Positions 15,113 through 33,433 of a stretch of DNA of 33,433 bases are shown here, piece after piece (within the stretch, counting starts at the first letter, position 1; each line of letters opens with the position of its first letter). Where the stretch lies: the IMG/VR virus record IMGVR_UViG_3300046373_000240, positions 1-33,433 of that record; one strand, 5' to 3'. This DNA is from a virus. The position numbers and the translations under genes are program-made. The notes beneath the pieces are model-generated. The model saw only the letters and a list, made by a program, of their open reading frames with translations, did not search any database and was not told the DNA's origin.

Positions 15113-15192
15113 TGGGCGGGAATCAGGAATCGAACCTGATCGCAGATAACGGGAATCGAACCCATAATACAACCTGTCGCCAACCTTCCCGC
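15113..15192 (-). tRNA. tRNA-like element (acceptor stem and T arm intact, D arm atypical)
   Basis: GCGGGAA (15192-15186) pairs with TTCCCGC (15122-15116) as a 7-bp acceptor stem. TCAGG-TTCGATT-CCTGA is a perfect T arm. Total length is about 78 bases, as for a tRNA. A second stem-loop ATGGG-TTCGATT-CCCGT fills the anticodon-arm position and would read anticodon CGA, but position 37 is U and the D-arm region does not form a normal stem. It may be a diverged phage tRNA, a tRNA pseudogene or a tRNA mimic. The isotype is not assigned. Confidence 0.42.
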
Positions 15193-28412: not shown

Positions 28413-29027
28413 TTAGTTTGCGACTTTTTTAGGTATCCAACCGCCTATATACTGGATTCCTTTTTGAAAATCTAACTTTGCAACATCGCGGTAACTCGGT
28501 ACTCCGAAACGATCGCGTATTTCTCTGTGCAGCTCAGCAAATGCTAGCTTCCGTTGTTCTTTAATTTCGATGATGGAGTAAACTCTGCGGGCAATGGCTT
28601 TTTGAAGTAATTGTTGCTCGTGTGAATCTAGCGTTACAAAGGAGTTGAGTTTGGTTTCGAGTTCATTTACTTTTTGGAGTAGTTCGGGAGTTTCAGTAGT
28701 AGGTACATAGATTCCATTTTTGCGGATAGAAGGAAGAACTTCGTTAAAGACCCAATCTTGAAATTTCTTAGCTTCTTTTTTATTGGAGCGGAATATTACG
28801 CGGTATAAATTTGGTTCGTTGATAAACCACATTTCTTGATCTCCGCTTGTGGTAGGGACTTCGATTTTAGCGACCCCCCTATCATCAAGCCGTTTAACTG
28901 TATCTGTGATATTTCCGATTTCTAAAATGTCACAAACATCCTTTAAGCAAAACATTGGTTCGTTATCGATCATTGAAATTCTCACTTCATTTGGTTCGTA
29001 GTTGAATGATTTGACTAATTCGTTCAT
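28413..29027 (-). CDS. Phage antirepressor (Bro-N plus ORF6C domains), 204 aa
   Basis: The Bro-N domain spans about residues 1-105 ('MFCLKDVCDILEIGNITDTVKRLDDRG', 'WFINEPNLYRVIFRSNKKEAKKFQDWVFNEVLPSIRKNG'). A helical linker and an ORF6C-like C-terminal DNA-binding part ('RFGVPSYRDVAKLDFQKGIQYIGGW') follow. Start at MNELVKSF is favoured by GGAGG 7 bases upstream; the ATG two codons earlier is too near the site. Family role: antagonises the prophage repressor, turning on lytic growth. It follows the Cro-like gene. Confidence 0.88.
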   Translation of the reverse strand: MNELVKSFNYEPNEVRISMIDNEPMFCLKDVCDILEIGNITDTVKRLDDRGVAKIEVPTTSGDQEMWFINEPNLYRVIFRSNKKEAKKFQDWVFNEVLPSIRKNGIYVPTTETPELLQKVNELETKLNSFVTLDSHEQQLLQKAIARRVYSIIEIKEQRKLAFAELHREIRDRFGVPSYRDVAKLDFQKGIQYIGGWIPKKVAN

Positions 29028-29048
29028 TTCCATTCCTCCATGGGTTTA

Positions 29049-29261
29049 TTAGTTTGCTTGCTTCAATACGGGGCATTTTTCGTCAAAAAAAATCTGCCAA
29101 TTAAACTTTAAAGCCTTTGCAATCTTTTTTGCCACCGAGACACTTAATCCTTTTCCGCGCTCTACATTGGAGTAGGCGCTTCGGCTTATTCCTGCTAGTA
29201 AAGCAACTTGGCTTTGTGTGAGTGACCCTCTTTTTTCGATTAACCATAAGCGTTCAATCAT
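29049..29261 (-). CDS. Cro-like XRE-family repressor, 70 aa
   Basis: HTH: 'LTQSQVALLAGISRSAYSNVERGKGLSVSVAKKIAKAL' (about residues 14-51). Start at MIERLWL with GGAGG 8 bases upstream. First gene of the leftward early operon, back to back with the CI-like gene and sharing its operator region, the classic Cro position. Confidence 0.8.
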   Translation of the reverse strand: MIERLWLIEKRGSLTQSQVALLAGISRSAYSNVERGKGLSVSVAKKIAKALKFNWQIFFDEKCPVLKQAN

Positions 29262-29279
29262 GTTTAACACCTCCTGTCG

Positions 29280-29783: not shown

Positions 29784-29966
29784 ATGGTGAAGAGAGATTT
29801 AATTAGATTTGTTGGGATACTAATTATCATTTTATTTTTCAGCTATTTTGTTTATCCAACACCTATTTATTACACTAAAACAACAAACGATGTAGTCATT
29901 AAAATTAATAGATTAACCGGAACAAATTATTACTTTGACCCACAAACTAGAGAATGGAAAAAATAA
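29784..29966 (+). CDS. Small membrane protein beside the repressor, 60 aa
   Basis: Residues 5-25 (DLIRFVGILIIILFFSYFVY) form one transmembrane helix. The outside part ends in a small 'VVIKINRLTGTNYYFDPQTREWKK'. GAGG is 3 bases from ATG 29784 (6 from the following GTG). Membrane proteins at this position in prophages are often superinfection-exclusion factors. That is an inference. Confidence 0.55.
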   Translation: MVKRDLIRFVGILIIILFFSYFVYPTPIYYTKTTNDVVIKINRLTGTNYYFDPQTREWKK

Positions 29967-29990
29967 AAACGCCCCGTGAAGGCGTTCCCT
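29962..29990 (-). terminator. Terminator of the 36-residue gene, convergent with the repressor operon
   Basis: AACGCC-TTCACGG-GGCGTT followed on the minus strand by TTTTATTTTTT. On the plus strand the same hairpin follows the membrane protein stop, without a T run, so it is best leftward but may act both ways. Confidence 0.7.
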
Positions 29991-29995
29991 GTCAT

Positions 29996-30106
29996 TTATG
30001 TAAAGGTTTTCGACAACCGGCTCAAAAAATCTAATATTTCCTTTAATTGTTTCTTATTCGCCTTTTCAATCAACCTATCAATCTCTTGTCTAGTAGCATC
30101 TTCCAT
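29996..30106 (-). CDS. SOS-controlled microprotein, 36 aa
   Basis: MEDATRQEIDRLIEKANKKQ followed by a second helical stretch (LKEILDFLSRL) to TAA at 29996. It has GGGAG 9 bases before the ATG, a full promoter upstream with a LexA box in it, and a strong terminator downstream, so it is a complete unit. It lies between the repressor/membrane-protein unit and an HTH gene. The two amphipathic helices suit a protein-protein interaction peptide such as an antirepressor. Function unknown. Confidence 0.65.
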   Translation of the reverse strand: MEDATRQEIDRLIEKANKKQLKEILDFLSRLSKTFT

Positions 30107-30143: not shown

Positions 30144-30172
30144 ATTATATGAGAACGTACGTTTGCTTTCAA
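30144..30172 (-). promoter_or_regulatory. LexA (DinR)-box promoter of the 36-residue gene
   Basis: TTGAAA (30172-30167), 17-base spacer, TATAAT (30149-30144). The spacer holds AGAACGTACGTTTG (30152-30165), matching 13 of 14 positions of the Bacillus consensus CGAACRNRYGTTYG. LexA bound here would block RNA polymerase, and DNA damage would release it. Confidence 0.8.
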
Positions 30173-30220
30173 GATGTTTTTTATTCGACATATTACGACA
30201 TATATATGAAAGGTGATACA

Positions 30221-30433
30221 TTGGCTCTCCGGTTAAGGAGAAGCCGCATACCTGATCTCTTGCTCAAGAAAGGAAAGTCTCAAGTTGATTTGGCTATTTA
30301 TTTGAATGTTTCCGAATCTCATATCTCACGTGTAATTCGGTTAAAGTCCAATCTATCGACAGTCAAATCAAAGATGGCAGCGGACTACTTCGGTTGTTCC
30401 ATAGACGATCTTTGGGAATGGGAATATTATTAG
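30221..30433 (+). CDS. XRE-family HTH regulator, 70 aa, TTG start
   Basis: 'LLLKKGKSQVDLAIYLNVSESHISRVIRLKSNLSTVKSKMAADYFGCSIDDLWEWE' is an XRE HTH. The start is TTG 30221, which has AAAGGTGAT upstream; the long upstream frame (from 30047) overlaps the 36-residue gene and its promoter. Repeated CGACATAT (30185-30192, 30196-30203) precede it and could be operators. The riboswitch transcript would run antisense to it. Confidence 0.65.
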   Translation: MALRLRRSRIPDLLLKKGKSQVDLAIYLNVSESHISRVIRLKSNLSTVKSKMAADYFGCSIDDLWEWEYY

Positions 30434-30504: not shown

Positions 30505-30533
30505 AAGTACACAAAAACCGCCTTAAGGCAACT
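30505..30533 (-). terminator. Riboswitch expression-platform terminator
   Basis: On the minus strand AGTTGCC and GGCGGTT pair around TTAA (with G.T pairs), followed by TTTTT. The 5' arm is the same GTTGCC that closes aptamer P1, so aptamer folding and termination exclude each other. Ligand binding should therefore favour read-through. Confidence 0.65.
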
Positions 30534-30592
30534 GGCTGGCATATTATAGCCCCTGTAGTTTTGCGTCCTATCCTTTCGGATAGTTTGCCTTT
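30527..30592 (-). ncRNA. c-di-GMP class I (GEMM-I) riboswitch aptamer
   Basis: Minus strand: GGCAAAC (30589-30583), stem-loop CTATCC-GAAA-GGATAG with the GNRA tetraloop, the invariant GACGCAAA, then a second hairpin ending GCCAGCCAG and GTTGCC (30532-30527) closing P1. These are the core features of GEMM-I aptamers, including the Bacillus-type GCCAG..TTGCC end. It points leftward, away from the integrase. Confidence 0.82.
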
Positions 30593-30621
30593 TCATAAGA
30601 GCGGTTTCTAGGTGTTTGATT

Positions 30622-30651
30622 AGAATAGCATATTTTGCCATTCTATGTCAC
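30622..30651 (-). promoter_or_regulatory. Promoter of the riboswitch transcript
   Basis: GTGACA (30651-30646), 18-base spacer, TATTCT (30627-30622) with extended TGC. The transcript would start about 25 bases before the aptamer. The interval 30434-30760 (327 bases) thus holds terminator, aptamer and this promoter; the stretch 30660-30750 before the integrase shows no clear sigma-A promoter. Confidence 0.6.
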
Positions 30652-30760: not shown

Positions 30761-32179
30761 ATGAGAGTAGGACTTTATTGCCGTGTCAGCACAGACGAGC
30801 AAGCAACACACGGATTTTCAATAGATAATCAGAAAGAACGACTTATTGCATTCTGCGCTTCTCAGGGGTGGGGTGAATACACATTATATGTAGATGATGG
30901 ATACACAGGAACCAAACTAGATCGCCCTGCTATGAAGCGTATGAGAAGGCATGTAGAAGAAGGTAAGCTAGATATGATCGTCGTTTACAAATTGGATCGG
31001 TTAGGACGTAAGCAGCTGGACGTTTTACATCTTCTTGATTTCTTTGAACAGTTTAATGTTGCATTCAAATCAGCTACAGAACCTTTTGATACCTCAACAC
31101 CACTTGGCAAGGCGATGATTGGGATTTTAGCTGTGTTTGCTCAACTCGAAAGGGATATGATCATCGAACGTACAACATCCGGCAGAAGGCAACGTGTGAG
31201 TTCTGGATTATGGTACGGTGGCAGACCGCCTTTCGGATACAGTTGGACGAAAGAAACGGAATCACTTGAGATACTGGAAGATGAAGCCTATGTTGTAAAA
31301 GAAATATTTGATCAATACTTACAAGGTAAGTCTAGACTAGCTATATCCGATTGGGCAGCAAGCCAAACCAACGCCAGGGTATTTGACCATAGTGTGATTA
31401 GAGATATTTTAGCTAGACCAGTATACATCGGGAAATTGGTAAATAACGGTTCATTAGTTGAAGGAAGGCATAAAGCCATTATTGACGATGAAACCTTTTA
31501 TAAAGTTCAAATTGAATCAGCTCGGAGAAAAGAAGGCATGTCGCCCATCGGGGAATATTTATTAACGGGCCTGTTGAAATGTGGTGTGTGCGGAGCTGGT
31601 GTAGTCCACGTCATCCGTACCACAAATAAGAACAGTAAAACCTACTCCTATGAGTTATATGCCTGTAAGAATCAGCATGTGAGAGCGAAGGATCGGGGGA
31701 ATAACTGCTCGTTGGGATACAGAAGGAGAGAATTGGTCGAAGCACATGTGGTTGAACAAATGAAGGCATTGCCCAATAATCAATCTGACTTTAAAAAAGC
31801 CATGAGTAAAAATGTGGAGGAAAGATTCAGTGACGAAGTGGTCAAGGCTCTCCGTGAAAAATTACACATAGCTACAGTTGGTTTAGAGAACTTGTATGAT
31901 GCGGTTCAAAATGGCGATATTAAAATGTCTTTTGTGGTAGATCGGATAAAGAACTTAGAAGCATCCCGAGAAATGATTGAAAAGCAGCTCGAAGATATTA
32001 AAGATGAAACACCAAAATACCTAGAGCCAGAAAACTTCTACCTCATGATTAATGAAGTCGGGGAACTGTGGGACCACTGCACTTATGATGAACGAAAGAT
32101 GCTGATAAGGAAAGTGGTAAAACACGTCACGTTAAAACCTGACTCCGTATTGGATATAGAATGGAATACAGTACAATAG
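30761..32179 (+). CDS. int: Large serine integrase, 472 aa
   Basis: The resolvase-type catalytic domain starts 'RVGLYCRVSTDEQ' with the nucleophile Ser10 and R8; 'VVYKLDRLGR' and 'LGKAMIGILAVFAQLERDMIIERT' follow. The recombinase domain ('RPPFGYSW' on), a zinc-ribbon ('CGVCGAG' with later Cys) and a C-terminal coiled coil (about 365-420) complete a large serine recombinase. It inserts the phage into spoVR and, with a directionality factor, excises it. GGAGG lies 7 bases before the ATG. It is next to its attachment site, as usual. Confidence 0.95.
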   Translation: MRVGLYCRVSTDEQATHGFSIDNQKERLIAFCASQGWGEYTLYVDDGYTGTKLDRPAMKRMRRHVEEGKLDMIVVYKLDRLGRKQLDVLHLLDFFEQFNVAFKSATEPFDTSTPLGKAMIGILAVFAQLERDMIIERTTSGRRQRVSSGLWYGGRPPFGYSWTKETESLEILEDEAYVVKEIFDQYLQGKSRLAISDWAASQTNARVFDHSVIRDILARPVYIGKLVNNGSLVEGRHKAIIDDETFYKVQIESARRKEGMSPIGEYLLTGLLKCGVCGAGVVHVIRTTNKNSKTYSYELYACKNQHVRAKDRGNNCSLGYRRRELVEAHVVEQMKALPNNQSDFKKAMSKNVEERFSDEVVKALREKLHIATVGLENLYDAVQNGDIKMSFVVDRIKNLEASREMIEKQLEDIKDETPKYLEPENFYLMINEVGELWDHCTYDERKMLIRKVVKHVTLKPDSVLDIEWNTVQ

Positions 32180-32197
32180 TTTTCATATTATTGGGTA

Positions 32198-32221
32198 ACC
32201 GCCAAAAGCTTTCATCGAATG
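32198..32221 (+). other. attR region: junction of prophage and spoVR
   Basis: Between the integrase stop and the SpoVR Met, in the SpoVR frame, the codons read T-A-K-S-F-H-R-M, and K-S-F-H-R-M-K is normal SpoVR sequence. Upstream of this the frame is prophage and stops at the integrase TAG. The crossover core lies within or just before AAAAGCTTT (32204-32212). Serine integrases use a 2-base core; exact bases need attL. Confidence 0.75.
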
Positions 32222-33433
32222 AAAACACAATATGATCTGGGATTGAGCAAAATTTATGAGCTAGTTATTAACTCCAACCCTTGTTATGCCTTTCTGCTTG
32301 ATGGAAACTCTCTAATCCAGAATAAACTAATTGTTGCCCATGTTTTGGCACATTGTGATTTTTTCAAAAACAATGCCCGCTTTTCAAAAACAAATCGGAA
32401 TATGGTTGAAAGTATGTCAGCTGCTTCTGAACGAATCAGTCAATATGAAATAAAATTCGGTACAGAAACCGTAGAGACATTTTTGGATGCGGTGCTTGCC
32501 ATTCAGGAGCATGTCGATCCAAGTCATTATAGGCATAAGCATAATGAGGATGAACATGGCGAGCAACAGAAAAATCAACAGAAATTTACCGAATACAACG
32601 ACCTTTGGAATTTAGAATCAGTAGAAGCATATGAAAAATCAGAAACCAAACGTTTCCCGCCTGACCCGGAAAAAGACATACTATCATTCATTGAAACTCA
32701 TTCTTTTCACCTTGAAGCATGGCAACGTGACATTCTCACGATGCTCCGTGAGGAAATGCTTTACTTCTTTCCACAAATGGAAACTAAAATTATGAATGAG
32801 GGCTGGGCATCTTATTGGCACATTCGTATCCTACGAGAGTTGGAACTAACCTCCGAAGAAACGTTGGAATTTGCTAAGCTGAACTCCGCTGTTGTGCAGC
32901 CATCCCAAACTAGTTTAAACCCCTATTATCTAGGCTTGAAAATATTCGAAGACATTGAGCGTAGATGGGATCAACCTACTCCTGAGGATAAAGTACGTTT
33001 TGGATATAAAGGTGGTCAGGGTCGCGAAAAAATGTTTGAAGTTCGCGAGTTTGATTCAGACACCTCCTTTATTCGCAGCTATCTAACAAAGGAATTGGTC
33101 GATGATTTGGATTTGTACGTCTTTGAGAAAAAAGGTGCGGAGTGGAAAATTACCGATAAAACCTGGGAAACCGTTCGTGATCAGCTTGTTTATTCACGCA
33201 TCAATGGCGGTTTTCCTTACCTGTTTGTTGAGGATGGAAATTACTTGGACAACGGTGAGCTGTATCTCAAGCATGCTTTTGAAGGTAATGAATTGGATTT
33301 AAAATATATTGAACGCACCTTACCGTATGTGGTTCAGCTTTGGGGTAAACCTGTACATCTGCAGACGACTATTGAGGATAAAGCTGTATTGTTTAGTCAT
33401 GATGGTAAGAAATCAAATCGAAGATTTTTGTAA
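32219..33433 (+). CDS. spoVR: SpoVR, 3' part of the host gene split by the prophage (404 codons)
   Basis: SpoVR sequence from '[29 protein letters not shown]' through '[14 protein letters not shown]', '[12 protein letters not shown]', '[22 protein letters not shown]' and '[19 protein letters not shown]'. The family is about 465-470 residues and takes part in spore cortex formation in Bacillus. About 65 N-terminal residues are missing, and the Met at 32219 has no ribosome site, so this half is probably silent until the prophage excises and the gene is rejoined. The stop is at the window's last bases. Confidence 0.92.

Follow-up and report, generated by a model that had tools for sequence, protein, structure and literature searches.

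An antisense-oriented c-di-GMP-I riboswitch in the immunity region of a prophage at spoVR

c-di-GMP is a messenger for motile versus sessile life, and a riboswitch for it inside a prophage raises the question of what a virus might control with such a signal. The riboswitch considered here lies in a stretch of viral DNA of 33,433 nucleotides, called the window below. A first-pass annotation had placed it in a prophage immunity region with no adjacent target gene and had supposed that a prophage that reads c-di-GMP could tie its decisions to host state. We examined the identity and direction of the aptamer, the genes that a leftward transcript from it would meet, and the recurrence of the arrangement in other phages.

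The aptamer and its prophage

An Rfam scan of the whole 33.4-kb window matched a single RNA family, c-di-GMP-I-GGC (RF03167), at 30598-30523 on the minus strand, as reported by cmscan with 63.9 bits against a gathering threshold of 59 and an E value of 4.8e-13. Scored with the ordinary c-di-GMP-I model (RF01051), the same aptamer reaches 68.6 bits against a cut-off of 35, which exceeds its RF03167 score. Moreover, its core has GACGCAAA in the place where the GGC variant has GACGCGAA. Because of the higher RF01051 score and the presence of GACGCAAA instead of GACGCGAA, we call the aptamer an ordinary class I member; the GGC variant and its ligand were rejected, since the G that replaces A after GACGC is absent. 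The canonical ligand-contact positions (GGC and GACGCAAA) are present, as evidenced by an alignment with the RF01051 consensus and the phage relatives. Also, the window RNA folds more stably than its shuffles (z from -3.4 to -4.0). The first-pass annotation had called a leftward GEMM-I aptamer, and the covariance model for that class, with a match well above its cut-off and on the minus strand, bears out both class and direction. We regard the aptamer and its direction as secure at the level of sequence, and we infer that it binds its ligand. Although the window element shares the sequence and fold of the RF01051 aptamer, it differs from a typical member of that family in that it is not directly upstream of a sense gene; it lies behind an HTH gene in a prophage immunity region.

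The window makes up the right end of a prophage in a spore-forming bacterium (Table 1). The integrase gene stops shortly before a reading frame whose match to the SpoVR profile begins at position 63, and in a comparison with the intact SpoVR of genome G411 the similarity starts just upstream of 32219. In another genome, G157, spoVR is broken at the same place, a related integrase is present, and the junction has similar phage sequence. The window prophage (junction 32180-32260) is probably a vrin-like element that would have to be excised to make spoVR whole. Insertions in spoVR are known from the Geobacillus element vrin (PMC4191935, PMC6957869), to which we liken the window prophage by insertion site alone (PMC4191935). 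Leftward from the riboswitch, the order is the HTH gene (+), a 36-residue ORF (-), a 60-residue ORF (+), the CI-like gene (+), the Cro-like gene (-), the Bro-N/ORF6C gene (-), and then leftward phage genes. The CI-like, Cro-like, and antirepressor-type genes, together with the integrase at the split spoVR, support the immunity-region setting given at first pass. Control of the integrase by the riboswitch was rejected because the riboswitch points the opposite way. The prophage also carries a tRNA-Ser gene (anticodon cga) at 15113-15191.

Table 1. Features at the right end of the window (strand as read in the window; "." where no strand applies)
Feature	Position	Strand	Basis or remark
Bro-N/ORF6C antirepressor-type gene	28413..29033	-	Profile searches
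Cro-like HTH gene	29049..29270	-	Profile searches
CI-like HTH repressor gene, 108 aa	29422..29748	+	Profile searches; HTH only, no peptidase domain
Intrinsic terminator behind peptide gene	29965..29989	-	Sequence prediction
36-residue peptide gene, MEDATRQEIDRLIEKANKKQLKEILDFLSRLSKTFT	29996..30106	-	First plausible sense gene for the riboswitch; Shine-Dalgarno-like sequence
Promoter of peptide gene, TTGAAA-17-TATAAT	30144..30172	-	11/12
LexA-like box AGAACGTACGTTTG in peptide-promoter spacer	30152..30165	.	Motif match, 2 mismatches to 14-mer
Spo0A-box-like TGTCGAA between HTH start and LexA box	30184..30190	-	At chance frequency in the whole window
Small XRE/HTH (HTH_3) gene	about 30221..30433	+	Family profile; TTG start assumed; antisense to riboswitch transcript
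Terminator-like hairpin AGTTGCC-TTAA-GGCGGTT + TTTG	30516..30533	-	Partly aptamer nucleotides; U-run behind
c-di-GMP-I riboswitch aptamer	30523..30598	-	Rfam covariance models
Promoter-like site of riboswitch, GTGACA-18-TGcTATTCT	30622..30651	-	9/12, TG before -10 (extended -10); prediction only
Large serine integrase gene	30761..32179	+	Profile match; diverges from riboswitch
Host spoVR, C-terminal part, split by prophage	32219..33433	+	Profile match and comparison with intact SpoVR

Several side observations concern relatives of the integrase and other phage aptamers. None of the integrase relatives has a riboswitch in its immunity region; in one of them, G291, a riboswitch lies upstream of a separate large ORF of 964 aa that is sensor-like by sequence. 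A BsrG-type type I toxin-antitoxin RNA adjoins the integrase relative of L056 (9933-10192), and a CRISPR array adjoins that of G295 (L027, 3696-4125). In L126 (G759), a phage has an aptamer of the window's type (core at 2022-2063 when the locus is reversed) immediately before, and in sense with, a small XRE-type gene, which is followed by further small ORFs and an apparent lysis cassette; c-di-GMP might control lysis in this phage. Tandem c-di-GMP-I-like aptamers lie upstream of masked stretches in L114 and L115 (G591 and G601). Finally, four aptamers (L100, L102, L187, and L139) read AGC in place of the GGC seen in the rest. GEMM-Ib riboswitches, which sense 3',3'-cGAMP, are marked by a G-to-A change at this ligand-contact position, and a phage with such an aptamer could be reading CBASS defense, which we offer as a lead only.

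Genes and signals along the leftward strand

A riboswitch was counted as antisense-acting when it lay no more than 500 nt from an opposite-strand gene and was directed into that gene. The window riboswitch points into the small XRE/HTH gene, the end of which lies 90 nt from the aptamer on the opposite strand. Directly downstream of the riboswitch there is no sense gene; the first plausible one, the 36-residue peptide gene, starts (ATG) 417 nt past the aptamer and carries a LexA-like box in its promoter. These findings agree with the first-pass annotation, in which the riboswitch was antisense to an HTH regulator and its first sense gene was a 36-residue SOS gene some 400 bases away. By itself, the window LexA box is not above chance for a 33-kb window; the position of this predicted site is supported by the relatives described below. 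Because its own promoter is strong, the peptide gene may do without the riboswitch. Between the riboswitch's own terminator-like elements and the terminator at 29989-29965, no leftward terminator-like site was found.

How the riboswitch would act on its own transcript is less simple. The promoter claimed for it has a counterpart in the promoter-like site predicted upstream of the aptamer, and the claim of a terminator that competes with P1 stands in part: a hairpin at 30533-30516 does share aptamer nucleotides, but an extended P1 (AGAAACCGC..GCGGUUUUU, with its 5' arm at about 30609-30601) is itself the dominant, terminator-like structure in the window. In folding, this extended P1 totals -34 to -37 kcal/mol, much stronger than the hairpin, and it takes up the same U-run. 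Because the U-run of the hairpin is occupied by so stable a structure, we assign no firm sign to the window switch, which could mostly terminate or be insensitive. Folding gives a GC-rich P1 followed by U5 in both the window and L179, which suggests an OFF switch in which P1, closed by the ligand-bound aptamer, would serve as the terminator. In L111, a P1 of A and U only hides the U-run, and the terminator is formed from the aptamer core; its switch looks like an ON switch, the reverse of those in the window and L179.

Control of the window riboswitch promoter by Spo0A was rejected, as TGTCGAA, the core of the Spo0A box, is absent from the 190 nt that precede the aptamer core. The same box core, mostly as TTTGTCGAA, does precede 6 of the 16 phage-type c-di-GMP-I aptamers (L108, L109, L110, L111, L139, and L100 [G411a]), where shuffles expect 0.28, and 3 of 29 host aptamers. 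Spo0A, the sporulation master regulator, may control the promoters of the phage aptamers that bear it.

Recurrence of the arrangement in other phages

In four other viral contigs (L110, L111, L112, and L179) and in two loci of G411, an opposite-strand aptamer lies just 3' of a gene of the window's HTH family. The two G411 proteins, each with a c-di-GMP-I aptamer just behind its gene, are 54% and 48% identical to the window HTH protein. A first pattern, built from the G411 and window aptamers, found L110, L111, and L112. Since this pattern was biased towards HTH-adjacent aptamers, a general GEMM class I pattern, not built on HTH neighbors, was also run; it matched 64 stretches, among them many near-identical aptamers that, going by their sequence, we take for C. 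difficile prophages, and gave one further HTH-antisense case, L179. Strict peptide-pattern searches of viral contigs for further HTH relatives found little, and a search of phage records for relatives of the whole region found only integrase fragments, with no HTH match in that collection.

The full order, namely, riboswitch, antisense HTH gene, sense LexA-box peptide gene, antisense CI-like gene, and Cro-like gene, is common to the window, L111, and L179. In L110 and G411a, a Cro-like XRE gene takes the place of the peptide gene as the sense partner, and contig L112 stops at the HTH gene, with the partner outside the contig. A 65-aa reading frame behind the riboswitch of G411a was dropped from consideration, as it is not conserved in the window. 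Two further loci are arranged somewhat differently: in L152, a different antisense gene follows the riboswitch, and a similar peptide and a CI-like gene come next; in L139, the riboswitch precedes a terminator-like hairpin, beyond which lie a small ORF in sense and then an antisense repressor-like gene. The peptide and CI-like genes of L111 and L179 overlap, which leaves room for other antisense effects there.

In a tree of the HTH family, which was built on about 75 residues and is a guide only, the riboswitch-bearing members form one clade (38-79% identity) and two distant branches. These three separate places imply that the association of riboswitch and HTH gene arose or was exchanged at least three times, and chance carry-over would be hard put to explain it. 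Given this recurrence across distantly related phages, the riboswitch most likely targets the antisense HTH gene together with its divergent partner. The phrase "no adjacent target gene" is, therefore, literally correct for the window but passes over this likely target. A link between the prophage's decision and c-di-GMP is plausible, and the comparison makes it much better supported.

The pair of regulator and small ORF can also be followed apart from the riboswitch. The HTH-family profile has matches in 89 out of 396 genomes from a single bacterial family, which we take, by its size and by the matches, for Paenibacillaceae. A perfect GAACNNNNGTTC stands no more than 140 nt from the HTH start in 18 of the best 30 loci, against 0.04 expected from shuffles; the distance is mostly 32-50 nt, and a small ORF lies beyond the box in most of these 18. 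This excess strongly supports the view of the small ORF as an SOS gene in general, the LexA boxes being predicted sites, and it is the LexA-type box on the small ORF that makes the module look SOS-linked. Divergent pairs of an XRE/HTH gene and a LexA-box small ORF are widespread (L201-L229), mostly without a riboswitch. Among the best 30 HTH-family loci, only those of G411 have one; as most members of the family are without it, the riboswitch appears to be an optional part. The peptides of the window, L111, L179, L152, and G665 have a short motif (..I..A...QL..) in common, and Pfam and PHROG profile searches with a subset of the peptides matched no family. Profile searches found no peptidase domain in the CI-like repressors examined, so their SOS induction would require an antirepressor, as in the Gifsy phages.

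A possible second input to prophage induction

We propose that the riboswitch gives the prophage induction module a second input, in which read-through lowers the regulator and raises the peptide, a reading to which we give about an even chance. The module would consist of the rightward XRE/HTH regulator gene and the divergent, leftward peptide gene with a LexA box in its own promoter. On DNA damage, the peptide would probably disable the noncleavable CI-like repressor. A second leftward promoter, behind the HTH gene, would drive a transcript that begins with the riboswitch; on read-through, this single RNA would first cross the HTH gene in antisense, then cover the peptide gene in sense, and stop at the terminator behind the latter, lowering the HTH regulator and raising the peptide together. 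The aptamer, the order and directions of the genes, the LexA boxes of the relatives, the recurrence, and the terminator behind the peptide gene can all be read in the sequence; ligand binding, read-through and its sign, the antisense effect, and an antirepressor role of the peptide belong to the proposal.

The riboswitch might instead act on the HTH gene only, with read-through RNA shutting that gene as a cis-antisense and the peptide driven solely by its own LexA promoter. Such a restricted role would suit L110 and the two G411 loci (G411a and G411b), where the riboswitch lies beside the HTH gene without a LexA-box peptide, as well as the 11/12 promoter of the peptide gene itself and the antisense-acting c-di-GMP-I riboswitch put forward for a Paenibacillus XRE gene (PMC9943018). 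However, no leftward terminator-like site separates the HTH and peptide genes, the next one being right behind the peptide gene, and the partner gene is in sense wherever it is visible. We consider action on the HTH gene alone rather unlikely. It is improbable that the riboswitch yields a short terminated RNA only or is a carried-over host element without a role in the immunity region: the recurrence of one position behind members of a single HTH family, at three separate places in the tree and in elements with 21-53% protein identity between them, argues against this idea, even though the extended P1 with its U-run is very stable and such hosts can hold around 20 riboswitches of this sort (c-di-GMP-I-type matches number 17 in G001 and 20 in G291), a ready source.

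Recombination directionality factors are often small, and the peptide could be one, in which case the riboswitch and LexA box would govern excision from spoVR and not repressor inactivation. The adjoining serine integrase and the insertion in a sporulation gene are in keeping with such a function, as is the excision of spoVR-type elements during sporulation (PMC4191935, PMC6957869). Nevertheless, L110 has a similar module with an apparent tyrosine-type integrase, as judged from sequence, and the peptide/HTH pair adjoins a CI-like gene in phages with different integrases, and we hold a role in excision to be very improbable.

Read-through that lowers the regulator and raises the peptide, as we propose, would draw on parts that are individually familiar. 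The C. difficile prophage riboswitches Cdi1_4 and Cdi1_5 are, like the window element, phage-borne c-di-GMP-I riboswitches served by a distal promoter, a second promoter following downstream, and their product is an antisense RNA (PMC3649979, PMC7699646); c-di-GMP reduced their downstream transcripts (PMC7699646). Their product, however, is an antitoxin RNA in a lysis/type I toxin-antitoxin region, whereas in the window the antisense target would be an immunity-region regulator, followed by a peptide gene in sense. Going by its description in the relevant part of PMC9943018, the antisense-acting c-di-GMP-I riboswitch proposed at the XRE gene P40081_02330 of Paenibacillus sp. FSL P4-0081 is of the same class, lies opposite an XRE gene, and is probably the same kind of element; that description predicts it to be a host regulator of biofilm or sporulation, and a prophage, a LexA box, and a small ORF are not among the features it gives.

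The divergent pair has its own relatives. In the TF-smORF modules of temperate phages, an XRE-type regulator is likewise divergent from a small ORF, and inactivation of cI by the small protein is established (PMC10432266). Those modules are SOS independent, occur in plasmid-like phages, and have a regulator that activates the small ORF, whereas the window small ORF has a LexA box and would receive the riboswitch transcript. The Gifsy phages have LexA-controlled antirepressors (PMC3121763), small proteins acting with a repressor that lacks self-cleavage, and the window resembles them in its CI-like repressor without a peptidase domain and may do so in the LexA-like box at its peptide gene. However, the Gifsy antirepressor gene lies outside the immunity region, whereas the gene of the window peptide, a putative antirepressor, lies inside it, between the CI-like and HTH genes. 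Thus, each part is already known, and the combination looks new: in the open-access literature, we found no c-di-GMP riboswitch described as lying opposite an immunity regulator in the immunity region of a prophage, and no description of a LexA-linked XRE/small-ORF pair in these Paenibacillaceae-type prophages.

Natural signals other than DNA damage that induce prophages are mostly unknown, as stated for the TF-smORF modules (PMC10432266). Here, a candidate inducing signal, c-di-GMP, is legible from sequence and directly testable. Because the same layout is found in distantly related viruses, the virus probably reads this host lifestyle signal as well as DNA damage. It is possible, though we put it somewhat below an even chance, that in several lineages of temperate phages that infect spore-forming Bacilli, c-di-GMP has become an input to the lysis-lysogeny decision through an antisense riboswitch, one transcript of which would both silence an immunity regulator and express an SOS-type antirepressor peptide, making a circuit with two inputs, DNA damage and host lifestyle. 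If true, this would place an antisense riboswitch at the lysis-lysogeny switch.
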